From the NCBI GenBank assembly GCA_002838945.1, contig PGXB01000010.1, positions 1 to 64,000 on the forward strand: a stretch of DNA of 64,000 bases, given 5' to 3'. The stretch's first letter is position 1, and each line of letters opens with the position of its first letter. This document shows positions 2,923-32,470 of this stretch, piece after piece. Source of the DNA: a candidate division Zixibacteria bacterium HGW-Zixibacteria-1 (GTDB lineage: Bacteria; Zixibacteria; MSB-5A5; GN15; PGXB01). The position numbers and the translations under genes are program-made. The notes below the pieces were generated by a model. The model was not told where the DNA came from, searched no databases, and saw nothing but the letters and a program-made list of their open reading frames with translations.

Positions 2923-3582
2923 TCACCCCTTTATGCCGTCGAACAGGATTTTTTCGGCAGCGTCAATCAGTTCCGCCAGCCGCTCCCGGCGTTTCAATTT
3001 CGACATATCAGCGGAGATTCGGCGATGCATCGCTTCGGCCACGGCATTGATCACAAAAACAATCCGCTCAACCGAAATATCCTGCCTTATTTCGGCCGTG
3101 CGAATGCCGCGTCTTAAAAGCGCTTCGACATACTCGCGCTGAACCGATGTCAACCGTTCGATGAACGATCCGCTAAGTTCGCGGCTGTTTTCATACATCA
3201 TTTTGATATAGAAGAAGTATTCCAGCCGGCGCTCATCCCAGAATTCAAGCTGCGCGTTGAAATAAATCCGCAGCCGATCCAGAGTGCGCACCTCGCGGCT
3301 CTGATGATAGTTTTCATCCCATTCGCGCTTGTAGTTATCGATAAATATCTCGAACAGAAATTTCAGCACATTTTCTTTGCTGCCGAAATACTGAAACAGC
3401 GAGCCCTTGGAGACACCGGCCGCATCGGCGATACGGTCGATCGAGACGCGGTCAAAGACTTCGCGGGCAAACTCATTCAGCCCGGCCAGATACAGCTTCT
3501 GTTTTTTCTGCGGATGCAGCTTGCGGAACGTCGCCGAGACGATTCCCTTCTCTTCAAGCGCTACAATCAGATTTTCATTCAT
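2923..3582 (-). CDS. TetR/AcrR-family transcriptional regulator
   Basis: The 219-residue protein has the family layout: an N-terminal helix-turn-helix (IDRIADAAGVSKGSLFQYF, about residues 48-66) followed by an all-helical ligand-binding half. These dimeric repressors bind palindromes near their own promoter and release DNA when a small molecule binds. A near-perfect palindrome lies 20 bases upstream of the start codon (3603-3618), in the space shared with the divergent inositol phosphate synthase gene. Autoregulation is therefore likely, and control of that neighbour is possible. The ligand is unknown. Confidence 0.88.
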   Translation of the reverse strand: MNENLIVALEEKGIVSATFRKLHPQKKQKLYLAGLNEFAREVFDRVSIDRIADAAGVSKGSLFQYFGSKENVLKFLFEIFIDNYKREWDENYHQSREVRTLDRLRIYFNAQLEFWDERRLEYFFYIKMMYENSRELSGSFIERLTSVQREYVEALLRRGIRTAEIRQDISVERIVFVINAVAEAMHRRISADMSKLKRRERLAELIDAAEKILFDGIKG

Positions 3583-3602
3583 AGGCTATTACTTTATATA
3601 TA

Positions 3603-3618
3603 ATGACTATATGGTCAT
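3603..3618. promoter_or_regulatory. Probable TetR-type operator
   Basis: The 16-base sequence ATGACTATATGGTCAT is a palindrome with 14 of 16 positions symmetric (half-site ATGAC, six-base AT-rich centre). It lies 20 bases upstream of the TetR start codon and about 40 bases upstream of the -35 of the divergent promoter, where TetR-family operators normally sit. Confidence 0.6.
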
Positions 3619-3658
3619 CATCAATATACTATGGAATTATCATTTGTCAATATTTTTC

Positions 3659-3686
3659 TTGACATACCCGGCATCTTTGTTATATT
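3659..3686 (+). promoter_or_regulatory. Sigma70-type promoter for the inositol phosphate synthase gene
   Basis: A consensus TTGACA (3659-3664) is followed after 16 bases by TATATT (3681-3686). The predicted start point leaves a leader of about 38 bases with AAGAAGGGAG (3713-3722) placed 8 bases before the ATG at 3731. Confidence 0.7.
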
Positions 3687-3730
3687 GGCCGTGTCGATTA
3701 GAAATTATTCTTAAGAAGGGAGTTTTATAA

Positions 3731-4900
3731 ATGGGAAAAGTCAGAGTTGCCATTATCGGCGTCGGTAATTGCGCATCATCGTTCGTCCAGGGAGTGGAGT
3801 ACTACAAGAAAGCCAAGGACAGTGATTTTGTCCCCGGCTTGATGCATGTCAACCTGGGCGGGTATCATATCAGCGATATCGAGTTTTCGGCCGCTATCGA
3901 CATCGACAAGAACAAGGTCGGCAAGGATCTGTCGGAAGCCATTTTCACGAAACCGAACAATACCTACAAGTTTTGCACCGTGCCGAAAAGCGGCATTATC
4001 GTCCAGCGCGGCATGACCCATGACGGGCTTGGGAAATATCTCTCGCAGATTATCGAGAAGGCACCCGGCGACACGGTCAATATTGTCAAGCTTCTCCGGG
4101 ACACCAAAACCGATGTGGTCGTGAGCTATCTGCCGGTCGGTTCCGAGACCGCCACGAAGTGGTATGTCGAGCAGATTCTTGAAGCCGGATGCGGTTTTGT
4201 CAACTGCATTCCGGTATTCATTGCCCGCGAGAAATACTGGCAGGGCCGATTCAAGGAAAGAGGCTTGCCGGTTATCGGTGATGATATCAAGTCTCAGGTG
4301 GGCGCCACTATCGTTCATCGGGTTCTCACCCGCCTGTTCCGCGAACGCGGGGTCCGGCTGGAACGCACCAGCCAGCTCAATGTCGGCGGCAATACCGACT
4401 TTTTGAATATGCTTGAGCGGGAGCGTCTGGAATCGAAGAAGATATCCAAGACTAATGCGGTCACCAGCCAGCTTGATTATGATATCGGCAAGGCCAATGT
4501 CCATATCGGGCCGTCGGATTATGTGGAATGGCTGTCCGACCGCAAATGGGCCTATATCCGGATGGAGGGACGAACCTTCGGCGATGTGCCGCTCAATATC
4601 GAGTTAAAGCTGGAAGTGTGGGATTCGCCGAACTCGGCCGGCGTCGTTATCGATGCTGTCCGTTGCTGCAAGCTGGCGCTTGATAACGGTATCTCGGGGG
4701 CACTCGAAGGGCCGGCGTCATATTTCAAGAAATCTCCGCCGGTTCAATATACCGATGACGAAGCGCGCCAATTGACCGAGGAGTTTATTCTCAAATATGG
4801 CTGGAAAGATGCCAGCAAACCGAAAGGCAAGCCCAAAGCGAAACCGGCGGCAAAACCGGCGGCCAAAGCAAAGAAGGCTGCAACTCGTAAGAAAAAGTAG
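3731..4900 (+). CDS. ino1: Inositol-3-phosphate synthase
   Basis: The enzyme converts glucose 6-phosphate to 1L-myo-inositol 3-phosphate using bound NAD+, the first step of inositol synthesis. The 389-residue protein starts with a Rossmann nucleotide loop ([14 protein letters not shown], about residues 8-21) and contains the conserved [11 protein letters not shown] block near 182-192, which in this family lies by the active site. It resembles the shorter actinobacterial and archaeal form. The last 30 residues form a low-complexity Lys/Ala/Pro tail, unusual for a metabolic enzyme and possibly nucleic-acid or surface binding. It has its own promoter and a strong terminator right after it. Inositol could feed phosphatidylinositol-type lipids. 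Confidence 0.93.
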
Positions 4901-4928
4901 TTTTGCTTAAAGTATAAATGCGTATATT

Positions 4929-4961
4929 AAAGGCGAACAACAATTGTTCGCCTTTGTTTTT
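4929..4961 (+). terminator. Strong intrinsic terminator abutting the tmk start
   Basis: Perfect 12-base arms (4929-4940 and 4944-4955) with a three-base loop are followed by GTTTTT. It ends transcription from the inositol phosphate synthase gene. The T-run ends only three bases before the tmk ATG at 4965, so tmk has no room for a Shine-Dalgarno site outside the hairpin. Confidence 0.85.
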
Positions 4962-4964
4962 GAT

Positions 4965-5588
4965 ATGGACGGAAAAGGATATTTCATAACGTTCGAGGGC
5001 ATCGACGGCTGCGGCAAAACCACGCAGCTGAAGATGACTGAGCAGTATTTGTCGGAAAAGGGACTGCCGGTCCTGGAGATCCGGGAACCGGGCTCGACGC
5101 CGCTTTCGGAAAAAATCCGGGAAATCCTGCTGAATATGGAATTTCATATAAATCCGGTTTCGGAATTGATGCTTTATGTGGCGGCGCGGGCGGAATTGAT
5201 CAGGGATGTGATCATACCTTCTTTGTTTGACGGCAAAATAATTTTGTGCGACCGATTTTTCGACTCGACCACCGCCTACCAGGGTTATGGGCGCGACCTT
5301 GATATTGAATCCATAAAGCAGCTGCATAAGCTATCGGTCGGGCAGTTTATTCCCGATCTGACCATTCTGATCGATGTCGATTACGAAACCTCGCTGACAC
5401 GCCGCAAACAAAAGGCGGACCGGCTCGAATCGGAGTCGGAGGATTTTTTCAACAAGGTCAGGAAGGGCTTTCTCGAGATAGCCAAACAGGAACCGAAACG
5501 GATCGTCGTTATAGACGGCAACAAAAGTATAGAAGAAATCTTCAGCGAGGTGCAGGCTTGCCTCTGGACAAGACTGGAAATCAAATAA
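4965..5588 (+). CDS. tmk: Thymidylate kinase
   Basis: Phosphorylates dTMP to dTDP, an essential step in dTTP synthesis. The 207-residue protein has the P-loop FEGIDGCGKTT near its start, the DRFFDSTTAYQGYG block of the dTMP site, and an Arg-rich LID region (SLTRRKQKADR). I chose ATG 4965. An in-frame TTG at 4944 would add seven residues but lies inside the terminator hairpin, and family members begin just before the P-loop strand. No Shine-Dalgarno sequence precedes the ATG. The 3' end overlaps the next gene by 31 bases, so translation of the two is probably coupled. Confidence 0.93.
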   Translation: MDGKGYFITFEGIDGCGKTTQLKMTEQYLSEKGLPVLEIREPGSTPLSEKIREILLNMEFHINPVSELMLYVAARAELIRDVIIPSLFDGKIILCDRFFDSTTAYQGYGRDLDIESIKQLHKLSVGQFIPDLTILIDVDYETSLTRRKQKADRLESESEDFFNKVRKGFLEIAKQEPKRIVVIDGNKSIEEIFSEVQACLWTRLEIK

Positions 5589-7174
5589 CCGATTCCCCCG
5601 AAAGATACCGTCGCTCGACCATTCTCTGGTCGGTGATTTTATTCTGTTCGATGATCCTGATGATTACCGCCCTGTCTTTTTATGTTCTCTCGGACAACAA
5701 CCTTTATTATTCGATGCAACTGGCTGCCAGCCTTGACCTGATTAATTATCTTTATCCCGAAGAATACAATGCCACGCAGATGGTCAGGCAGGCCCGGCAG
5801 GCCATATTCAGCTCGCTTGACCGCTACTCCGGTTATCTCGAGCCGGAGGATCTTAATCGTGTCACCGAGGAATTTTCCGGATCATACGGCGGCATCGGCA
5901 TCACCGTCGTAACCGATGATAAGGGATTGATGATAATGTCCGTTCGTGAGGATGGGCCGGCGGGCCGGGTCGGAATGCAAACCGGCGATATTATAATCAA
6001 GGCCGACTCAGTGAGGCTCGGTGGGTTGAACTCCTATCAGTCAACATATATTCTACGAGGCGAGGAAGGAACATCGGTCAAGGTGACGGTTGCCCGCAAC
6101 CAGATGGCCGACACGCTGGAGTTCGATCTTGTCAGGGAGAAACTCAGGCTGATTCATATTCCCTATGCGGGCCTGACCGAAAACAAGAGTCTGTATATCC
6201 GCATAATGGACTTTGAGGCAAATCTCGCCGAGGATCTGCTGGCCTGCCTGGATTCATTATATTTAAATCAGAAAGATTCAGTTAAATCAATTATTCTTGA
6301 TCTGCGGGGCAATCCGGGTGGTTTGCTCAATGAGGCGGTCGCGGCGGCCAATCTTTTCCTTGATAAGGGGCATTTGATTGTCGGCGTCAAAGGGCGTTCG
6401 CGCTGGCGGAACGATCAATTTCAATCATCCGGGCGGGACATCACCAACGGCCTGCCGCTGGCGATTCTGGTCGATCGCGGGTCGGCATCAGCCTCGGAGA
6501 TCCTGGCCGGCGCTCTCAAATACGCCGGGCGCGCGGTTCTGATCGGCGATACCACCTTTGGTAAAGGGCTGGTCCAGGAATATAACGGGCTTTATGACGG
6601 CTCGGGAGTCAGGTTGACAACGGCACGTTATTATTTCGAGGGGAATCGATTTTTGAATGACCCGGAGGCGGAAGTGATCGACAGCGCCGCCGGCATTCCG
6701 CCTGATTATTATTATAAACCGCCGTCCAGTGAGCCATTCCCGCAGTGGCTGGAAAGAACGCAGCAACTTCGGGATTTTGCCATTAATAACAAGGAAGAAA
6801 TTATCGCCTATGCCCCATTCACGGAATCATCGGCCAGGTGGCTCGGCGATTTTGTGAACCATATGCGTCGCAAAAACCTGAAATATGAATCGGATATAAC
6901 GCTGCTGGCGCAGTTCGCCCGCGATGAAACGATATTTAACAACTATTCGGAGGGACTACTACGGGTAATCGACAAAATCAGCCGGATCGCGGAAGATGAT
7001 GATCTCCGACAGTATGAAGTCTATGGCGATTTTATCCGCCAGCGGCTTTATCAGATCGCAATCGAGGCCCAATTCGGCGAAGAGCGATCCTATCGGGAGG
7101 CAATTGTTCCATACCGTCGGGATATTATCATGGCTGAGGAAGTTTTATCTCCGAAAGCAAAGACTGACAATTGA
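5558..7174 (+). CDS. C-terminal processing peptidase, S41 family
   Basis: The 538-residue protein has one N-terminal membrane segment (about 23-43), a PDZ domain (about 105-180, GxxGRVGMQTGDIII) and an S41 protease domain. That domain carries the GSASASE nucleophile region (308-314) and the general base Lys336 in FGKGLVQ, so the Ser-Lys dyad is intact. Such proteases act on the periplasmic side and trim or degrade envelope proteins, often hydrolase adaptors. I use TTG 5558 as start: GAGGTG lies six bases upstream, and the next in-frame ATG is inside the membrane segment. About 130 residues follow the protease core, a longer tail than in minimal CtpA. Confidence 0.88.
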   Translation: MPLDKTGNQITDSPERYRRSTILWSVILFCSMILMITALSFYVLSDNNLYYSMQLAASLDLINYLYPEEYNATQMVRQARQAIFSSLDRYSGYLEPEDLNRVTEEFSGSYGGIGITVVTDDKGLMIMSVREDGPAGRVGMQTGDIIIKADSVRLGGLNSYQSTYILRGEEGTSVKVTVARNQMADTLEFDLVREKLRLIHIPYAGLTENKSLYIRIMDFEANLAEDLLACLDSLYLNQKDSVKSIILDLRGNPGGLLNEAVAAANLFLDKGHLIVGVKGRSRWRNDQFQSSGRDITNGLPLAILVDRGSASASEILAGALKYAGRAVLIGDTTFGKGLVQEYNGLYDGSGVRLTTARYYFEGNRFLNDPEAEVIDSAAGIPPDYYYKPPSSEPFPQWLERTQQLRDFAINNKEEIIAYAPFTESSARWLGDFVNHMRRKNLKYESDITLLAQFARDETIFNNYSEGLLRVIDKISRIAEDDDLRQYEVYGDFIRQRLYQIAIEAQFGEERSYREAIVPYRRDIIMAEEVLSPKAKTDN

Positions 7175-7276
7175 TATCAATAAGAGCACGGACCTCTGAT
7201 ATAAATTTGTATAATGTAAATTGCGGCTGTTTGGTTTTACAAATGCCGCGTATGATTTTTAAAAATAGCGCCGCCA

Positions 7277-7951
7277 ATGCCTGTAAAGACAAAAAAGACA
7301 ATAATATTTTCGGATTTTGACGGATCATTCTCCGAAAAGGATATCGGTCACCGCATTTTTCGACACTTCTCCGATGGCCGCATTATGCCGCTGGTCGAAC
7401 GCTGGAAACGCGGCGAGATAACATCACGCGAGTGCCTGACGAGCGAAGCGTCGATGATCCATCCGACCCTTGATGAAATTTATGAATTCCTGGCCGAATT
7501 TAAACCGGCCCGGGGTGCAATCGAGTTTTATCGAACCGTCAGGACAGCCGGAATTCCTTTTTATATTGTTTCGGACGGGACCGATATTTACATTGATTAT
7601 ATGTTAAAGAAGTACAATCTGGAGGAGATCAAGTACTTCAGCAACAAGGGAAAGGTCGAGAATCGAAGCTTTATTCTTGACTTTATTTATGACAATGACG
7701 GCTGCGAGCGATGCGGCTGCTGTAAAGGTGCCCGGATTAATGACATCGTCGGCCCCAGCCGAAATGAGTGGGAGATAGTTTTTATCGGCGACGGGCTGTC
7801 GGATTTATGCGCCGTGCCCCACGCGGATATTATTTACGCTCGTGGTGATTTACTGGAATATTGCCGGACCCATGACGTAAACGCAATTGAATACAATGAT
7901 TTTTTTGATATATTGGAAAGTATGAAAAAATCCGGACACTTACCCGGATAA
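7277..7951 (+). CDS. HAD-IB phosphatase, MtnX/SerB-like
   Basis: The 224-residue protein has HAD motif I FSDFDGS (Asp13 and Asp15), motif II VSDGTD and motif III-IV GDGLSD, with a helical cap between I and II as in the phosphoserine phosphatase/MtnX branch. A CERCGCCK cluster near residue 155 is a feature of MtnX-like proteins. MtnX acts in methionine salvage, but no other salvage gene is nearby, so the substrate stays open. No clear Shine-Dalgarno site precedes the ATG. It lies 33 bases upstream of the nucleotidyltransferase gene and probably shares its transcript. Confidence 0.75.
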   Translation: MPVKTKKTIIFSDFDGSFSEKDIGHRIFRHFSDGRIMPLVERWKRGEITSRECLTSEASMIHPTLDEIYEFLAEFKPARGAIEFYRTVRTAGIPFYIVSDGTDIYIDYMLKKYNLEEIKYFSNKGKVENRSFILDFIYDNDGCERCGCCKGARINDIVGPSRNEWEIVFIGDGLSDLCAVPHADIIYARGDLLEYCRTHDVNAIEYNDFFDILESMKKSGHLPG

Positions 7952-7984
7952 GTCCAGAGAGATTAATTTTATCGGAGATATCAC

Positions 7985-10483
7985 ATGAAGGCGATAATCA
8001 TGGCCGGGGGCTTTGGAACCAGGCTGCGACCGCTGACAATCAACGTCCCCAAGCCCATGGTTCCGATCGGGACCATTCCAATGATGGAGCATGTCGTTAA
8101 TCTGCTTAAGAAGAACGGCTTTACCGAGTTGGTATCTTTGTTGTTCTTCCAGGCGGAGGAGATAAAGAACCATTTCAATGACGGGCGCAAGTTCGGCGTT
8201 AAAATGGATTATTTGCAGCCCAATGAAGATTATGGGACAGCCGGCGCCGTGCGCTATGCCGACACATTTATCGATGAGACCGTTCTCGTAATTTCCGGCG
8301 ATGTTCTGACCGACTTCGATCTGGAGGGGACCATCCGGTGGCACCAGGAAAAGAATTCGGAGGCCACGATTCTATTGACGCGGGTCGAAAATCCGCTGCC
8401 TTATGGTATTGTGATTGTCAATGAAGAGGGAAAGATCGTCCGCTTTCTGGAAAAGCCGTCATGGGGCGAAGCTTTCTCCGATACTATCAATACCGGCATA
8501 TATATTCTTGAACCGCACACAGTAAGATTGATCCCGCCCAAAACCAATTTTGATTTTTCGCAAAACCTTTTCCCGCTGATGCTGTCAAAACAGATGGGCC
8601 TGTTCGGAATGATTACCGACGGCTATTGGAAGGATGTCGGCAATATCAATGAATACCGCCGGGCGCACGAGGACCTTCTCAGTGGGCAGATAAATCTTGA
8701 ACTGGGCATGAGACGGCAGAATCATGGCGAGGCGATGCTGCATCTGGGCCGGAATGTCCATCTTGGTGAAAATCTTAAGCTCGGGGGTGTTATTGTCTGC
8801 GGCGACAATGCGGTGATCGCCGACGGGGCCAAAATCGAGAATTCGGTTATCGGCGCGCGTACCAGAGTCGGCGAGGGCGCCGATATCAGCCGGTCGGTGA
8901 TCTGGTCCGATGTTCAGATAGGCGCCGAATCGCAGCTTACCAGCGCCATTGTATGTGACCGGGTGGCCATCGGGGAAAATGTTGCCCTGCTTGATGATGT
9001 TGTAGTTTCTGATGACAGCACGGTCGGCAACGGCGCCACCGTTAAAGCCAATTGCAAGATATGGCCCGGTAAAACGGTCGATGAGGGCGCCATTGTGTCA
9101 TTCTCACTGGTTTGGGGTGAAAAGTGGAACCGGGAGCTGTTTACGCAATCCAAAGTCACCGGTCTGGCCCTGACCGAAATAACGGCCGAAATGGCGGTCA
9201 AGCTGGGTGGTGCCTTCGGGGCCTATCTCGGTCAGGGAAAGCGGGTGGTAACCAGCCGTGATGCTTCGGATACCTCTCGTCTTCTCAAGCGCGGCTTGAT
9301 TGCCGGATTCCTGGCGGCCGGGGTCAACGCCGATGATTTGGGAATGCTGCCGATTCCGGTTGTCCGATATGCGCTCAGCAAGGGTGACTATGCGGCCGGA
9401 GTATATGTCAGGCACAATCCGACCGACCAAAATTTGATAGATTTCATTTTCTTTAACGGTGACGGGCTCGACATGCCCAGTGCCAATCTGAAAAAAGTGG
9501 AGCGTCTCTTTTTTGGCGAGGACTACCGAAGGGCCAGGCTGGATGAAATCGGACATCTTGATAATCCGCAGGGGATGCTGGAGCAGTATCGGGCCGATTT
9601 TATCGCGGCAATAAATCCGAGTGCCATCCGAAAAGCCGGCTTTAAGGTGGTTATCGATTATGCCAACGGCGGCGCCAGTGTCGTCTTCCCCACTATTTTT
9701 TCCCAACTGGGTATTAACCTGGTGGATCTCAATGCCTTTTTGAATCCAAGAAGTATTTCCCGCCATCCGGATGAACTGGTCCAGGCTATTGTCCAGCTCT
9801 CTTCGATTGTTCGGACGCTGCATTCGGATATCGGTTTTTTGATCAACCCGGCGGCCGAGAAGCTGACCGTGGTCGATGAAAATGGTTTCTTTATCGACAA
9901 CCAGCTGCTTCTGCTGCTGGTTACCGACCTGTTCCTGAGAACCCACACCGCCCATAGAATAGCCGTTCCGGTGGCGGCATCGATGGGTGTGGAGGAGATT
10001 GCCTCGAGGTATGGCATCGAAGTGATTAGGGTTCGGAATTCGCATCTGGCTATGATGGAGGCGCTGAAACAAAACAATGTCGATTTTGTCGGCGGCACTC
10101 TTGGCGGATTCATCTTCCCGGGGTTCCAGATGGGTTCCGATGCCATCCTGAACGCCGTTTATATCCTGGAAATGATGGCGAAGGAAAAGGTTCGCCTGGG
10201 CGAACTGCGGGGGCACTACGAAAAATACATCCGTAAATCGGTCAGTGTTCCCTGCCCCTGGGCCCAAAAAGGCAAGGTCATGCGCCGTCTGATCACCGAA
10301 ACCGAAACCAAGAATCGCCAGTTGATTGACGGTGTCAGGATTATTGAAAACGGCGGCTGGGTGCTGGTGGCTCCGGACAATCTGGCGGCCGCTTTTACGG
10401 TTCTGGCCGAATCGGAGTCGAAGGAATTTGTCGAGGAAACAATCGGTCATTACCGGACACTGGTGGAAAATGCCCAGGAGTAA
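7985..10483 (+). CDS. Mannose-1-phosphate guanylyltransferase-like enzyme fused to a degenerate phosphomannomutase domain
   Basis: The 832-residue protein has three parts. Residues 1-230 are a nucleotidyltransferase with the signature GGFGTRLRPLT and PKPM. Residues about 250-370 are hexapeptide repeats (left-handed beta helix). Residues about 380-830 have the phosphohexomutase fold. The first part should make an NDP-sugar, most likely GDP-mannose, feeding gmd and rmd at 39.6-41.6 kb. In the mutase part the serine of the usual TASHNP site is Arg476 (YVRHNP), the metal loop has become HSDIGFLINP, and the sugar and phosphate loops are also changed. I therefore expect no mutase activity and possibly a regulatory role. 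GGAGA precedes the ATG. Nucleotide specificity is inferred from the family. Confidence 0.85.
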   Translation: MKAIIMAGGFGTRLRPLTINVPKPMVPIGTIPMMEHVVNLLKKNGFTELVSLLFFQAEEIKNHFNDGRKFGVKMDYLQPNEDYGTAGAVRYADTFIDETVLVISGDVLTDFDLEGTIRWHQEKNSEATILLTRVENPLPYGIVIVNEEGKIVRFLEKPSWGEAFSDTINTGIYILEPHTVRLIPPKTNFDFSQNLFPLMLSKQMGLFGMITDGYWKDVGNINEYRRAHEDLLSGQINLELGMRRQNHGEAMLHLGRNVHLGENLKLGGVIVCGDNAVIADGAKIENSVIGARTRVGEGADISRSVIWSDVQIGAESQLTSAIVCDRVAIGENVALLDDVVVSDDSTVGNGATVKANCKIWPGKTVDEGAIVSFSLVWGEKWNRELFTQSKVTGLALTEITAEMAVKLGGAFGAYLGQGKRVVTSRDASDTSRLLKRGLIAGFLAAGVNADDLGMLPIPVVRYALSKGDYAAGVYVRHNPTDQNLIDFIFFNGDGLDMPSANLKKVERLFFGEDYRRARLDEIGHLDNPQGMLEQYRADFIAAINPSAIRKAGFKVVIDYANGGASVVFPTIFSQLGINLVDLNAFLNPRSISRHPDELVQAIVQLSSIVRTLHSDIGFLINPAAEKLTVVDENGFFIDNQLLLLLVTDLFLRTHTAHRIAVPVAASMGVEEIASRYGIEVIRVRNSHLAMMEALKQNNVDFVGGTLGGFIFPGFQMGSDAILNAVYILEMMAKEKVRLGELRGHYEKYIRKSVSVPCPWAQKGKVMRRLITETETKNRQLIDGVRIIENGGWVLVAPDNLAAAFTVLAESESKEFVEETIGHYRTLVENAQE

Positions 10484-26501: not shown

Positions 26502-27344
26502 ATGAATATGACTGATAAAACCTATCCGGCCGCGAAGCAAAATTTATTCTATGTTCTGCTGGGATTATTATTCCTGATATATCTCCCGGCGCTCATCGAT
26601 CTGGTTCATGATTGGTATCATGACGCCAATTATTCCCATGGTTTTCTGGTTCCATTGGTTTCTTTTTACCTGATCTGGAAAAATCGTGGCGAGTTATCGC
26701 AAATCGAGGTCAAACCCAATGGATTGGGACTGGTAGTTATTATTTTCGGCGTCATTCTCTTTATTCTTGGCAATGGCGCTTCGGAATATTTCACGGTCAG
26801 GTTTTCGCTGGTGGTGATACTTTTTGGCATTATGCTGTATCATCTCGGCTCCGAATTTGTCCGCAAAAGCTGGTTTGCGGTTCTTTTTCTGGTCTTCATG
26901 ATACCAATTCCATATGTGATATATTTTTCGGCCACATTTCCGATGCAGCTTCTGGCCAGTAAAGTCTCCTCGGTGCTGTTGAACATAATCGGGATGCCGG
27001 TGGTCCGGCAGGGGAATATTATTCATTTGCCCAATCAGGCGCTGGAAGTGGCCGAAGCCTGCTCCGGAATGCGTTCGCTGGTGTCGTTGCTGGCGCTGGG
27101 GGCGATTTACGCCTACCTGTCGCAAAAAAGCCTTACCGCCAAAATCATTCTGTTTCTTTCGGCAATTCCGATTGCAGTTATCGGTAATGTCTTCCGGGTT
27201 TTTGTTACTTCGGTAATTGTCTATACTTCGGATCTGACTGTCACCGAGGAGCCGTTTCATTCGATTATGGGGGCGATGGTCTTTGTAGTCGCCTTTATTA
27301 TGCTGTTCGCGTTTGGCGCCATCCTGAGGAGGATATTCAAATGA
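26502..27344 (+). CDS. Exosortase
   Basis: The 280-residue polytopic inner-membrane protein has about eight hydrophobic segments and the exosortase triad: Cys187 in EACSGMRS, Arg232 in GNVFRVF and His253 in PFHSIMG. Exosortases recognise PEP-CTERM-type C-terminal signals, cleave them and are thought to attach the protein to a surface molecule, together with exopolysaccharide export. No PEP-CTERM protein is visible in this window, so the substrates lie elsewhere. The stop overlaps the EpsI start by four bases (ATGA). No Shine-Dalgarno site precedes the ATG; MTDKTY two codons later is an alternative start. Confidence 0.92.
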   Translation: MNMTDKTYPAAKQNLFYVLLGLLFLIYLPALIDLVHDWYHDANYSHGFLVPLVSFYLIWKNRGELSQIEVKPNGLGLVVIIFGVILFILGNGASEYFTVRFSLVVILFGIMLYHLGSEFVRKSWFAVLFLVFMIPIPYVIYFSATFPMQLLASKVSSVLLNIIGMPVVRQGNIIHLPNQALEVAEACSGMRSLVSLLALGAIYAYLSQKSLTAKIILFLSAIPIAVIGNVFRVFVTSVIVYTSDLTVTEEPFHSIMGAMVFVVAFIMLFAFGAILRRIFK

Positions 27345-27976
27345 AGAAGCAATATCTTCTCTCGATAGCTCTTATAATCTTCGGAGGCATTGTCGGCAAT
27401 GCTTTGCGTTTCACCGAAAAACAGCCCGACCGGATGCCGGATTTCAGCCTTATCCCTCTGGTATATGCCGAATATAGCGGCACCGAACAGGTTTTGCCGG
27501 AGTTCGCTTATGACATTCTGAAGGCCGATCTCAGCACCGTTCGCGATTATAAAACGGCCGATGGCGAACCGGTGGATTTTTTCCTGGCATATTTCAAATC
27601 CCAAAAATACGGCAGCCAGATTCACTCACCGAAACATTGCCTTCCGGGCGGCGGCTGGCGAATCGAGGAGATACATCCTTTCCAGCTGCAACTGGCCGAC
27701 GGGCGGATAAAAGATGTCAATCGACTGATTATATCGATCGATGACTATAAATCATTGATGTTGTATTGGTATGAAACCCGATCGGGTGAGATACGCAATG
27801 AATATGGCTTGAAATTCGATCTGGTCAAAAATTCGCTTCTGATCAGGCCGACCGATGCGGCCATTATTCGTATCACGGTCGGCGTGCCCGACGGCGATTT
27901 CAATAAAGCGACCCGGCAGGCGGTCGAATTTGTCCGCCGGTTTTATCCTTTTGTGGAAAAATCGCTTCCTTTTTAA
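27341..27976 (+). CDS. epsI: EpsI family protein (exosortase partner)
   Basis: The 211-residue protein has one N-terminal hydrophobic anchor and a periplasmic domain with the EpsI signature HSPKHCLPGGGW (His95, Cys100). EpsI accompanies exosortases, either fused or as the next gene, and is needed for exopolysaccharide or sorting function by an unknown mechanism. Here it is a separate chain, translationally coupled to the exosortase gene by a four-base overlap. The conserved Cys and His suggest a thiol-dependent step. Confidence 0.9.
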   Translation: MKKQYLLSIALIIFGGIVGNALRFTEKQPDRMPDFSLIPLVYAEYSGTEQVLPEFAYDILKADLSTVRDYKTADGEPVDFFLAYFKSQKYGSQIHSPKHCLPGGGWRIEEIHPFQLQLADGRIKDVNRLIISIDDYKSLMLYWYETRSGEIRNEYGLKFDLVKNSLLIRPTDAAIIRITVGVPDGDFNKATRQAVEFVRRFYPFVEKSLPF

Positions 27977-28025
27977 TCTAATTTTTTCTTGATATATTAG
28001 AAAACAGCAAGTACTATATATACTT

Positions 28026-28898
28026 ATGATCAAAAGCCTGTTCCGACTTTTGCGTCCTCAGCAATGGCTGAAAAACGGGGTTGTCCTGGCCGGACTTATT
28101 TTTGCCGGTGAGGCCCATGTCTTATCCAAAACCGTCATTGCCTTCGAGGCCCTGATCGCCTTCTGTTTTCTTTCATCCGCAGTTTATGTTCTCAATGACA
28201 TCATTGATCGCGAGCGCGACCGTCTCCACCCACTGAAAAAAAACCGTCCGATTGCTTCGGGGGAAATTTCGGTCTCGACTGCTTCCATAATCGGTGTTGT
28301 TTTGGCGGCGGTGGGAATTGCAATATCGGCCATGATTACTCAGTCGTTTCTAATAGTAGTCCTGAGTTATCTGGTCTTGAATATACTCTATACTTTTTTA
28401 TTAAAAAATGTGGTGATAATAGATGTCATGTGCATCGCGGCCGGTTTTGTTCTCAGAGCGGCCGGCGGCGCTGTGGCGATAGATGTCGAGATCTCGGGCT
28501 GGCTCTTGATAACCACCTTTGTTCTGGCTCTTTTTCTGGGGCTGGGCAAACGAAGGCATGAGCTTATTTATCTTGAAAAAGAGGCCGGGGCGCATCGCAG
28601 GATTCTCGAAAAGTATTCCACTTATTTACTGGACCAGCTTATCGGGGTCGTAACCGCTTCGACAGTTATAACTTACCTGTTTTACACTTTGTCTCCCGAA
28701 GTGAGCGCCAAACTGGGCACACAATATTTATTTGCCACTATTCCTTTCGTTATTTACGGCATCTTCCGCTACCTGTATCTGGTCCACAAGGAGGAAAAGG
28801 GCGGTTCACCGACCCGCCTTCTGCTTACCGATCGGCCGCTGCTTCTGGATGTTTTGCTTTGGCTTGCATCGGTAATCCTTATCCTTTATATTTTCTGA
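28026..28898 (+). CDS. UbiA-superfamily prenyltransferase, decaprenyl-phosphate phosphoribosyltransferase-like
   Basis: The 290-residue protein has eight or nine membrane segments and the first UbiA metal site NDIIDRERD (about 57-65). It opens with LRPQQWLKNGVVLAGLIFA, the typical N-terminus of the branch that joins phosphoribose to a polyprenyl phosphate. The second Asp-rich site is reduced, as in that branch. The product in actinobacteria is the precursor of the arabinose donor. It directly follows the exosortase pair and precedes a DUF362 gene. A weak promoter-like pair (TTGATA, TACTAT) ends only eight bases before the ATG. The real substrate is inferred from the family. Confidence 0.8.
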   Translation: MIKSLFRLLRPQQWLKNGVVLAGLIFAGEAHVLSKTVIAFEALIAFCFLSSAVYVLNDIIDRERDRLHPLKKNRPIASGEISVSTASIIGVVLAAVGIAISAMITQSFLIVVLSYLVLNILYTFLLKNVVIIDVMCIAAGFVLRAAGGAVAIDVEISGWLLITTFVLALFLGLGKRRHELIYLEKEAGAHRRILEKYSTYLLDQLIGVVTASTVITYLFYTLSPEVSAKLGTQYLFATIPFVIYGIFRYLYLVHKEEKGGSPTRLLLTDRPLLLDVLLWLASVILILYIF

Positions 28899-28927: not shown

Positions 28928-29881
28928 ATGGAACGTCGCGATTTTCTAAAAAAGACCGCCAATGCCGCGGGACTGGCCGCTCTTACCGGAATTGTTGGGT
29001 TCGGTTTTCACAACCGTGAGACTTCATCCTATCAGGCGACAATGGCCAAGACCAAAGGATTCGAGGTTGCCGCGGACAGGTCGTTCCCCGCGCTCGCCCT
29101 GGCCAGAAATGAAAACCACCCGGAAGCGCTTCGAGCGGCGCTGGATGCCGTCGGCGGCGTGGACAGGTTCATTCAATCAGGAGATCGGGTTACCATCAAG
29201 CCCAATGTCGGCTGGGACAGACTGCCCAAACATGCCGCCGACACCAACCCGGAGCTGGTGGCCGAAATGGTGCGGCTATGCCTGGCGGCCGGAGCCGCCG
29301 AAGTGATCGTTACCGATATCACCTGCAATGATGCCCGCAGGACCTTTATCCGTTCCGGCATCAAAGAAGCGGCCGAAAATGCCGGCGCCAGGGTGATCCT
29401 TCCGGTCGAAGAGGATTATGTCATGACCGATCTGGGCGGCCAGCTTCTGACGGTTTGGCCGGTCCTCAAATATTTTATCGAAACCGACAAATTTATAAAT
29501 ATGCCGATCACCAAACAACATTCGCTTTCCTCATGTACAATAGCCATGAAGAATCTTTATGGCATCCTTGGCGGTCGGCGGAATCAGTTGCATCAGCAGA
29601 TAGATCGAGCCATCGTTGATCTGGCGGCATTTATTCGACCGACATTGACGGTTGTCGATGCCACCCGTGTTCTAATGCGCAATGGCCCTCAGGGCGGATC
29701 GACAGCCGATGTCAGGATTGAGAATGTCGTCATGTGCTCGACCGACCAGGTGGCGGCCGATGCGCGCGCCTGCGAGTTTCTGGGATTGAAGGCCGAGAAT
29801 GTGAGCCATATCGTACTGGCGGCTCAATCGGGCCTGGGCAATATTGATTACCGTGCCGGGGGCTATAAAGAAATTGCATAA
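28928..29881 (+). CDS. Tat-exported DUF362 protein
   Basis: The 317-residue protein begins with a twin-arginine signal, ERRDFLKKTANAAGLAAL, so it should be exported folded, which often means it carries a cofactor. The rest is a DUF362 domain, with IKPNVGW, EVIVTD and MKNLYGILGG as the most characteristic stretches. DUF362 proteins have no settled function and often occur with ferredoxin domains. The gene ends inside the start of the iron-sulfur gene (TAATG), so the two products are translated together. GGGGAG precedes the ATG. Confidence 0.82.
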   Translation: MERRDFLKKTANAAGLAALTGIVGFGFHNRETSSYQATMAKTKGFEVAADRSFPALALARNENHPEALRAALDAVGGVDRFIQSGDRVTIKPNVGWDRLPKHAADTNPELVAEMVRLCLAAGAAEVIVTDITCNDARRTFIRSGIKEAAENAGARVILPVEEDYVMTDLGGQLLTVWPVLKYFIETDKFINMPITKQHSLSSCTIAMKNLYGILGGRRNQLHQQIDRAIVDLAAFIRPTLTVVDATRVLMRNGPQGGSTADVRIENVVMCSTDQVAADARACEFLGLKAENVSHIVLAAQSGLGNIDYRAGGYKEIA

Positions 29882-31560
29882 TGACTATTAAGACTGTCCG
29901 AAACCTCAGACGTATATCACAGATTCTTTTCTTCGGGATATTTTTCTGGCTGATACTGAAGACAAATTTTGAAGTCAATTTAAACCCGGCCGCCGGGGGT
30001 GAGATCATACTGCCCTATCCGGTTTCGATTGCCCTGCAATTCAACCCGCTGGTGGCGCTGGCCACACTTCTGGCGACAGGCACCATCTTCAAAGGGCTGC
30101 TCTGGTCGCTGGTTGTTTTGATCCCGACCATATTCCTGGGCCGTTTTTTCTGCGGCTGGGTCTGCCCTCTGGGAACACTCAATCACTGGGTGGCCGAAAT
30201 ACCATCGGAGCGGCTCAAGAGAAAGGGCCGCGGTCTGATCGAATCCAACCGGTACAAAAAATATCATCGCATAAAATATTACATACTTTTCGTTTTCCTG
30301 GCGGCGGCCGCAGCGGGGTCGCTTCAGATCGGCCTGCTGGACCCGTTGTCATTTCTGGCCAGATCCATCGGCACGGTCATCCTGCCGACCATTCACAGCA
30401 GCGCCGACGGCCTCCTGGGCTGGATAAAATCATTCGGGCTGGGGCCGATTTCAATAATGGCGCAATTTTTCTACGACCTTATATCACCGCTGCTGTTGAC
30501 CTTCCGACAAGTGCATTTCCACACCATTCTGACCATCGGAATTATGTTCCTGGCGGTCATTGTTCTCAACCGCATTTTTACCAGATTCTGGTGCCGGGGA
30601 ATCTGTCCGCTGGGGGCGATGCTCGGAATTTTCTCGCGCTATGCTATTTTCGGCCTGGCGAAAGATGCCCCGAGCTGCAACGGCTGTCAGAAATGCGTTC
30701 TGCACTGCCAGGGCGCCGATAATCCCGATGTCGGCTCGCGATGGCATCAGCCGGAATGTGTCCTTTGCCTTAACTGCCAGGCGGCCTGCCCGACCGGATC
30801 GCTCAAATTCAAATTTTATCCAAATCTCGAAAAGACCGAAGGCAACCCGGCCTCGACACAGAAAATCGATATTTCCCGGCGCAAGGTGATTATATCAACA
30901 CTTGGCGGATTGGCTCTGGTGCCGCTGTTTCGCTCCGGGGACGCCTTTGAAGTCAATGCCGATGCCACCTTGATTCGTCCGCCGGGCTCGATGGCGGAAA
31001 ATGAATTTCTGCAGCGCTGTATCAGATGCGGGCAGTGCATGCGGGTCTGCCCCAATAACGCCCTGCATCCGACTTTCATGGAATCGGGTCTGGAAGGGAT
31101 CTGGTCGCCTATCCTGATCGCCAAAATCGGCTATTGTGAGCCAACCTGCACTCTTTGCGGACAGGTCTGCCCGACCGGAGCCATTGCGGAGTTGACCCTC
31201 AAGGAAAAAGTCGGCGATGAGAAAACCAAACCGAACCGGATCGGAACAGCGTTCATCGATCGCGGCAGGTGTCTCCCGTGGGCCATGGCCGTGCCCTGTA
31301 TTGTCTGCGAGGAATGGTGCCCGACCTCCCCAAAAGCGATATACCTGAAGGAAGAAACCGTTATTAACAGCCGCGGCGAAGAAGTGAAAGTGAAGCAGCC
31401 GCATATTGATCCTGATCTGTGCACCGGCTGCGGCGCCTGTGAATACGCCTGCCCGGTAGCCGACCGGGCCGCGGTATATATCACATCGGTCGGCGAGTCG
31501 CGTTCGCTGCGCAACCAGGTTCTGCTTCAACGCAAAGGAATAGATCGCAGGAAAAAATAG
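29881..31560 (+). CDS. NapH/NapG-like iron-sulfur fusion protein
   Basis: The 559-residue protein looks like two redox proteins joined. The first half has about five membrane segments, two NapH-type motifs CGWVCP (91-96) and CRGICP (238-243), and two ferredoxin clusters (266-276 and 293-303). Residues 331-350 then resemble a Tat signal (ISRRKVIISTLGGLAL), and the second half is MauM/NapG-like with four further clusters (380-390, 419-430, 473-480 and 514-524). NapH and NapG pass electrons from quinol to periplasmic partners. Here the partner may be the coupled DUF362 protein. The role is inferred from families and context. Confidence 0.85.
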   Translation: MTIKTVRNLRRISQILFFGIFFWLILKTNFEVNLNPAAGGEIILPYPVSIALQFNPLVALATLLATGTIFKGLLWSLVVLIPTIFLGRFFCGWVCPLGTLNHWVAEIPSERLKRKGRGLIESNRYKKYHRIKYYILFVFLAAAAAGSLQIGLLDPLSFLARSIGTVILPTIHSSADGLLGWIKSFGLGPISIMAQFFYDLISPLLLTFRQVHFHTILTIGIMFLAVIVLNRIFTRFWCRGICPLGAMLGIFSRYAIFGLAKDAPSCNGCQKCVLHCQGADNPDVGSRWHQPECVLCLNCQAACPTGSLKFKFYPNLEKTEGNPASTQKIDISRRKVIISTLGGLALVPLFRSGDAFEVNADATLIRPPGSMAENEFLQRCIRCGQCMRVCPNNALHPTFMESGLEGIWSPILIAKIGYCEPTCTLCGQVCPTGAIAELTLKEKVGDEKTKPNRIGTAFIDRGRCLPWAMAVPCIVCEEWCPTSPKAIYLKEETVINSRGEEVKVKQPHIDPDLCTGCGACEYACPVADRAAVYITSVGESRSLRNQVLLQRKGIDRRKK

Positions 31561-31573
31561 AAGGAACTCAGTC

Positions 31574-32470
31574 GTGAAAAAAAATATCCATTTTTCGTTA
31601 ATTATTATTCTTGCCGCCCTGATACAATTGGGTTGCGGCGGGGACACGAAAGATGAATCCACCGCCCTACAGCAATATCTTCCGGCCCAGTTCACCGAGG
31701 CCGGTTTTATCAGGGCATCTGAAGTCCGCGCATTTCCCGGTAATTCGCTCTGGGAATATATCGACGGTCAGGCTGAATTGTATTACCTGTATAATTTTGT
31801 CGATGTCGCCACGACCATCTACAAAAAGGATGAAATGGAATTCGAGATCGATATCTACCACTTCGGATCACCTGATGACAGTTATGGTCTTTATTCCATG
31901 ATTCGAAATCCGGCGGATGACATTATCGGGATCGGAGTCGAGGGCTTTCTGTCTCCCGGCAGGCTGGTCTTCACCAAAGGCGAATATCTGGTAAAACTGA
32001 CCGGTTTTGATGAAACGGACGAAAGCATGACCGCCATAGTCGGTCTTGGCAGAATTTTCGAAAAAGAGCTGGTCGGGAAAACCGAGAAGCCGGCTGCATT
32101 TGGTCTGTTTCCGGCCGAAGATTTTGTTGCCAAAACCGACCGTTACTATGCTGATTCCTATCTCGGACAGAAATTTCTCACCCGGATTTACAGCCGGGAA
32201 TACATCAAGGAGGGGGACAGCCTTACGTTGTTTATTACCGCCGATGAAATGGGCGATAAATACGCAAAATGGCTGGAATTGGCCGATAGAATCGGCCGAA
32301 AAGCCGCTTCCCCCAATAGTCTTCCATTTGATCAAAATTTTACCTTTGTCTATGAAGATCCCTTTTACGGGCAGGTTATAGTCGGCCTTAAAAGCCAAAA
32401 ACTGGTCGGAATTGTTAATTTTAGCGACAAAATGAAAGATTATCTTACCCTGTGGCTGGAGTCTTTATAG
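31574..32470 (+). CDS. DUF6599-type lipoprotein
   Basis: The 298-residue protein has a lipoprotein signal with lipobox QLGC near residue 22. The mature domain contains LWEYIDGQAELYYLYNF and DIYHFGSPDDSYGLYS, which I associate with the DUF6599 family. The function is unknown; I believe the family tends to occur next to DUF362 and iron-sulfur genes, as here. The GTG start has AAGGAACT upstream and lies 13 bases after the iron-sulfur gene, so it is the third gene of the same operon. It would be a membrane-anchored extracytoplasmic subunit or sensor. Confidence 0.75.
   Translation: MKKNIHFSLIIILAALIQLGCGGDTKDESTALQQYLPAQFTEAGFIRASEVRAFPGNSLWEYIDGQAELYYLYNFVDVATTIYKKDEMEFEIDIYHFGSPDDSYGLYSMIRNPADDIIGIGVEGFLSPGRLVFTKGEYLVKLTGFDETDESMTAIVGLGRIFEKELVGKTEKPAAFGLFPAEDFVAKTDRYYADSYLGQKFLTRIYSREYIKEGDSLTLFITADEMGDKYAKWLELADRIGRKAASPNSLPFDQNFTFVYEDPFYGQVIVGLKSQKLVGIVNFSDKMKDYLTLWLESL

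Follow-up and report, generated by a model that had tools for sequence, protein, structure and literature searches.

A conserved gene module of DUF362 and a dual-targeted NapH-NapG polyferredoxin, frequently joined by DUF6599: a candidate redox system of the bacterial cell envelope

What brings together a gene of the DUF362 family, a gene for a membrane polyferredoxin and a gene of the DUF6599 family, and what might their products do at the cell envelope? The question is raised by positions 28928 to 32470 of the window, a stretch of 64,000 nucleotides that represents contig 10 of the 3.8-Mb assembly of candidate division Zixibacteria bacterium HGW-Zixibacteria-1. A first-pass annotation had read these genes as a three-gene extracytoplasmic redox module of an undescribed kind. 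Here, we report that they belong to a real and widely conserved module with a two-gene core, DUF362 and the dual-targeted polyferredoxin, to which DUF6599 is frequently added as a third gene; the claim of a genomic unit is thereby borne out, with the refinement that DUF6599 is a frequent but not a constant member.

The three genes are contiguous open reading frames (ORFs) on the + strand, arranged as originally described. The first (28928..29881) encodes a DUF362 protein of 317 amino acids (PF04015, E = 2.5e-47, 162 bits against a gathering cut-off of 24). The last base of its TAA stop codon (29879-29881) is shared with the ATG (29881) of the second gene (29881..31560), which encodes a NapH-NapG fusion of 559 amino acids, a membrane polyferredoxin with six [4Fe-4S] motifs that is recognized by NapH and NapG models and by the Fer4/Fer4_5 families of Pfam. 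A 13-base gap separates its end at 31560 from the GTG start (31574) of the third gene (31574..32470), which encodes a DUF6599 protein of 298 amino acids (PF20244, E = 3e-36, 125 bits against a gathering cut-off of 27). The three family assignments of the first-pass annotation are thus backed by Pfam and NCBIfam matches.

Within the phylum, represented by a set of 132 Zixibacteria genomes, the fusion was found in 83 genomes, DUF6599 in 98 and some form of DUF362 in 109. In at least 76 of the 84 fusion hits, several contigs ending at this point, the gene immediately upstream on the same strand is DUF362, and in at least 45 of them DUF6599 lies within 3.5 kb of the fusion. The window order, with DUF362 upstream and DUF6599 downstream, accounts for 29 of these 45 loci; another nine have DUF6599 upstream on the same strand, and seven show other or partly listed arrangements. 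DUF6599 is also more common in genomes that carry the fusion (74/83) than in those that do not (22/49; Fisher p = 1e-7, shared ancestry ignored).

Beyond the phylum, named genomes were scanned with a NapGH alignment started from fusions each of which has DUF362 next to it, and of the relatives, at least 556 in number, the 80 best were inspected; in the compared loci, each gene was taken as the longest ORF and export signals were judged by motif. These relatives come from Zixibacteria, KSB1, Caldithrix, Marinimicrobia, Electryonea, Nitrospirae, Deltaproteobacteria/Desulfobulbaceae, Krumholzibacteriia, Poribacteria, Aminicenantes, Anaerolineae, Acidobacteria, Omnitrophota and CSSED10-310. DUF362 adjoins the fusion in all 77 informative loci among the best 80, the other three ending at a contig edge. 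By the listed coordinates, DUF362 is directly upstream in 67 of these loci and downstream in five, in one of which (L187) an additional DUF362 copy touches the upstream end of the fusion; the remaining five were scored 'none' only on account of overlapping genes or of a match to the fusion that begins within the gene. DUF362 is, then, the constant genomic partner of the fusion and DUF6599 a recurrent one.

A DUF6599 gene above the Pfam cut-off joins the pair in Nitrospira (L142) and Acidobacteria (L174, L175, L188), and a DUF6599 survey of 199 genomes from the phylum of L175, the Acidobacteriota, yielded the window order in L295 and L296 and the order DUF6599-DUF362-NapGH in L315, L316 and L322. 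In an uncultured bacterium (L190:5947-8421, + strand), NapH, NapG and DUF6599 form a single ORF of 825 amino acids in which the DUF6599 domain (PF20244 at 548-736, E = 7e-27) is joined to the NapG end. In Marinimicrobia, the fusion is followed by short lipoproteins that are no more than DUF6599-like and fall under the Pfam cut-off; these loci were not counted as solid triads. With triads in Acidobacteriota and Nitrospirota, the arrangement is not peculiar to one lineage; kept as it is across phyla, it is far above chance. Taken together, the uniform adjacency, the recurring triads and the gene fusion support well, as a genomic unit, a putative extracytoplasmic electron-transfer system.

The fusion itself has a recognizable architecture. 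The NCBIfam NapH model covers residues 192-313 and the NapG model residues 327-534, and the motif scan confirmed the six ferredoxin-type motifs claimed for this product. The two in the NapH half (C266-C276 and C293-C303; 30676..30789, + strand) are expected on the cytoplasmic side of the membrane, and the four in the NapG half (C380-C390, C419-C430, C464-C480 and C514-C524; 31018..31452, + strand), the second and third of which deviate in spacing, on the periplasmic side. The cluster cysteines are invariant in the alignments, C296 excepted, and so are two CX3CP motifs (C91/C95 and C238/C242). Ahead of a hydrophobic stretch lies an internal twin-arginine motif, ISRRKVIIS (RR = residues 333-334; motif and stretch, 30871..30945, + strand), which is conserved in alignments A1 and A4. 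Passages of Tooke et al. (2017, eLife, PMC5449189) describe dual Sec-Tat polyferredoxins in which Sec inserts the NapH half and the twin-arginine translocation (Tat) pathway then exports the NapG half, Tat-dependent export having been shown experimentally for the PFD of MLMS-1. By this precedent, Tat should carry the NapG half of the window protein across the membrane by means of the internal RR and hydrophobic stretch, so that the predicted cluster motifs serve both membrane sides, and the fusion is, on its sequence features, a member of this known type. As a type of protein, the fusion is accordingly no novelty.

The two flanking products differ in how clearly they are marked for export. The DUF362 N terminus, MERRDFLKK, resembles a Tat signal, the key residues of which are invariant or nearly so among homologues (R3 in 64/64, R4 in 63/64, F6 in 62/64). 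The DUF6599 protein has a hydrophobic N-terminal export signal up to the lipobox-like IQLGC, which is imperfect by the strict rule; strict lipobox-like motifs occur in 22 of the 45 DUF6599 proteins of the phylum. The structural model of DUF6599 is weak (predicted local distance difference test (pLDDT) score of 64 from eight sequences) and confident only for an N-terminal domain at about residues 35-170; its best matches in the PDB, the PknH sensor domain (E = 4e-3) and RseB (E = 1e-2), are of the periplasmic sensor type and serve as leads only. We found no paper on DUF6599 in the open-licence literature. Elsewhere in the same genome, a second DUF362-DUF6599 pair (L052:4053-6375, contig 71), with DUF6599 in a short single-domain form, precedes a nitroreductase-family protein that carries an additional domain at its N terminus.

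On balance, and by a modest preponderance, we favour the view that DUF362 and the NapH-NapG fusion constitute an extracytoplasmic redox module, a transmembrane electron conduit for reductive chemistry outside the cytoplasm, in which DUF362 would be the obligate partner and DUF6599 an accessory lipoprotein. Under this scheme, electrons from menaquinol or cytoplasmic ferredoxin would enter NapH and pass through the four periplasmic NapG clusters to DUF362, which could be either a catalytic subunit that performs two-electron chemistry in its LarA-type pocket or a docking protein that hands electrons onward. DUF6599 would act as an extrinsic subunit in the envelope, keeping NapG together with the client. 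Likely clients in many genomes would be other Tat-exported Fe-S enzymes encoded nearby, namely an aldo/keto reductase that has two ferredoxin motifs and the radical S-adenosylmethionine (SAM) enzyme of the AmmeMemoRadiSam type. On contig 31 of the genome of the window, a DUF362 protein without an export motif (L201:1366-2505, + strand) has two C-terminal ferredoxin-type motifs, which links DUF362 to ferredoxin donors.

Several considerations weigh against this scheme. The module is known here from its genes, which give electron flow no direction. Menaquinol would be too weak a donor to reduce a radical SAM cluster. The fusion scores below the NCBIfam equivalog cut-offs (108.9 bits against 269 for NapG and 79.2 against 213 for the NapH family). 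All the Fisher counts of co-occurrence disregard shared ancestry, and the adjacency in 77 of 77 loci, owing to the seeding of the scan and its restriction to the best 80 relatives, describes this subfamily and not all NapH-NapG fusions.

Associations with other exported Fe-S enzymes bear on the identity of the clients. In Zixibacteria, Acidobacteriota and Marinimicrobia, DUF6599 has as a neighbour the gene for an aldo/keto reductase that bears a Tat signal and two ferredoxin motifs; in L060 this gene lies in one strand run with DUF6599-DUF362-NapGH. At nine loci (L034, L035, L039, L040, L042, L044, L045, L047 and L066), the Tat aldo/keto reductase that adjoins DUF6599 is itself accompanied by a protein of about 530 amino acids with a signal-like N terminus and a weak PETase-like match. 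The exported type of AmmeMemoRadiSam radical SAM enzyme, which has an N-terminal RRxF motif in 20 of the 21 proteins inspected, is often encoded alongside a DUF362 protein of its own and a signal-bearing MEMO-AMMECR1 protein. This type occurs in 70 of the 83 fusion-carrying genomes and in 7 of the 49 others (Fisher p = 9e-16, ancestry ignored), with its gene within 6 kb of the fusion in 19 genomes of the phylum; for comparison, a non-Tat form of about 335 amino acids occurs in many genomes, whether or not they carry the fusion.

The genome under study has such an exported set on contig 37 (L199, G000:C37), consisting of a MEMO-AMMECR1 protein with a signal peptide (2989-4479, - strand), a DUF362 protein (4568-5494, + strand), a radical SAM protein with an RRLF Tat-like motif (5494-6633, + strand) and a large membrane protein (6594-8762, + strand). 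For a homologue of the last (L084:3991-6219), neither Pfam nor NCBIfam gave a match, and we read the protein as spermidine-synthase-like.

It is conceivable, if tentatively so, that the fusion, together with DUF362 (and DUF6599), supplies reductant as a transmembrane iron-sulfur wire to Tat-exported AmmeMemoRadiSam enzymes, the radical chemistry of which would take place outside the cytoplasm. That powering the exported AmmeMemoRadiSam system is the main purpose of the module, with the fusion as reductant of an extracytoplasmic radical SAM enzyme, we regard as unlikely. The near-universal RRxF motif, the co-occurrence and the set with its own DUF362 on contig 37 speak for such a role, as do operons in Marinimicrobia (L126, L132), where the order is DUF362-NapGH-small lipoprotein-Tat radical SAM-MEMO/AMMECR1, and in Acidobacteriota (L174), where it is NapGH-DUF6599-DUF362-radical SAM-MEMO; however, most of the named loci lack a radical SAM gene within about 6 kb of the fusion and DUF362, the co-occurrence is inflated by shared ancestry, and the enzyme requires SAM, the presence of which outside the cytoplasm would need explaining. 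No paper that deals with such exported radical SAM enzymes was found in the open-licence literature.

A different role for the module, centred on DUF362, is suggested by the fold of this protein. It had been listed as being of unknown function, and it is not featureless: the AlphaFold2 model, built with 64 homologues (pLDDT 91), shows a LarA fold, and the solved structures that Foldseek ranks highest are without exception LarA or malate racemases (E values from 1.8e-7 to 9e-5), headed by 2yjg_A (E = 1.8e-7; TM-score, normalized by query length, about 0.5). Only the fold search gave LarA; PDB sequence searches with DUF362, single or as a profile, returned nothing useful. Three DUF362 residues, H198, K208 and H222, are invariant (64/64) and R98 nearly so (61/64), in a spacing that resembles H174-K184-H200 of LarA1, where R75, K184 and H200 bind the nickel-pincer nucleotide (NPN) and H174 is catalytic (PMC11770544).

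DUF362 might therefore be a periplasmic LarA-type enzyme that performs NPN-dependent hydride transfer on a 2-hydroxy acid, with electrons drained or supplied by the fusion, a reading for which the matched fold, the conserved pocket residues and the presence of LarC, LarE and LarA in the genome of the window can be adduced and which we nonetheless consider distinctly improbable. The hhalign pairing of H198 and K208 with LarA residues comes from a weak match (probability 0.6%), and catalytic H108 of LarA has no DUF362 counterpart, the alignment placing there Cys133, which is not invariant. LarC is missing from 34 of the 83 fusion-carrying genomes and LarE from largely the same ones, several of which are nearly complete (e.g., G020, G025 and G028); the Fisher p is 0.15. 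Because LarC and LarE are missing from so many carriers, NPN is no general requirement, unless it is imported, and the distribution of the two genes does not support NPN dependence as a general property of the module. Three relatives (G019, G065 and G071) have LarA-type genes (PF09861) even though neither LarC nor LarE was detected in them. On contig 31 of the genome of the window, a DUF362 protein without an export motif (L201:1366-2505, + strand) has two C-terminal ferredoxin-type motifs, which links DUF362 to ferredoxin donors. In the open-licence literature, we found no DUF362 paper that names this module in its title or abstract.

Directly upstream of the module, at 26502-28898, the window encodes an exosortase of the EpsH type, an EpsI/DUF3485 protein and a UbiA protein resembling decaprenyl-phosphate phosphoribosyltransferase. 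The hypothesis that the module serves this surface-polymer locus can draw on the order Xrt-EpsI-UbiA-DUF362-NapGH-DUF6599-DUF3108-DAGK, which recurs in a second genus of the family (L108), and on fusion-less DUF6599 genes that adjoin UbiA or EpsI (L068, L069, L071), but the triads of other families and phyla have no exosortase alongside (L099, L100, L109), and it appears very doubtful. Comparison of the triads led us to discard the exosortase link as a general feature, the association being lineage-specific. Finally, that three genes with separate functions are neighbours by chance has a negligible likelihood and is practically excluded for DUF362 and the fusion by the 77/77 adjacency, the repeated triads in different orders and the gene fusion, even though DUF6599 and DUF362 are also found apart from the fusion and cytoplasmic DUF362 forms exist.

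The module looks like a widespread and unexplained redox system of the cell envelope, widespread because DUF362 and the fusion adjoin in more than twelve named groups of bacteria. Across these groups, a polyferredoxin the biogenesis of which has been studied, but not its purpose, gains a constant partner, and for DUF362, a large family of unknown function, a role can now be put to the test, that of partner to an iron-sulfur conduit in the membrane. The link to Fe-S enzymes exported by Tat, one of them of the radical SAM type, also opens the question of extracytoplasmic radical SAM chemistry to direct test.

How, then, does the module compare with known systems? The exported version of the AmmeMemoRadiSam system (TIGR04335/04336/04337) is a frequent neighbour that co-occurs with the fusion, and is best viewed as a partner system outside the three-gene set of the window. 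DUF362 shares with the LarA (DUF2088) lactate racemase superfamily (Pfam clan CL0471) the fold and the His/Lys/His and Arg residues at the pocket, but it is shorter (about 317 amino acids versus 420), has a Tat signal and no H108 equivalent, and many of its carriers lack the NPN pathway. The NapGH quinol dehydrogenase resembles the fusion in having two [4Fe-4S] motifs for the cytoplasmic side, four for the periplasmic side and a pair of CX3CP motifs, whereas the fusion is a single polypeptide that falls below the NapG and NapH equivalog cut-offs and has DUF362 as its partner; no nitrate reductase was seen among the ten annotated neighbours in the window, the whole genome not having been searched for NapA. 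The closest counterpart is the PFD of delta proteobacterium MLMS-1 (Q1NSB0), likewise a NapH-NapG fusion with a NapH-type membrane part, an internal twin-arginine before the last transmembrane stretch and a periplasmic four-cluster half, a comparison made by description only. The passages of PMC5449189 concerned name no partners, to which the present analysis adds the constant DUF362 neighbour and DUF6599 as a third gene. The module would then be a variant on an electron conduit of a known kind, marked by an unusual link to genes for exported radical SAM enzymes and aldo/keto reductases.

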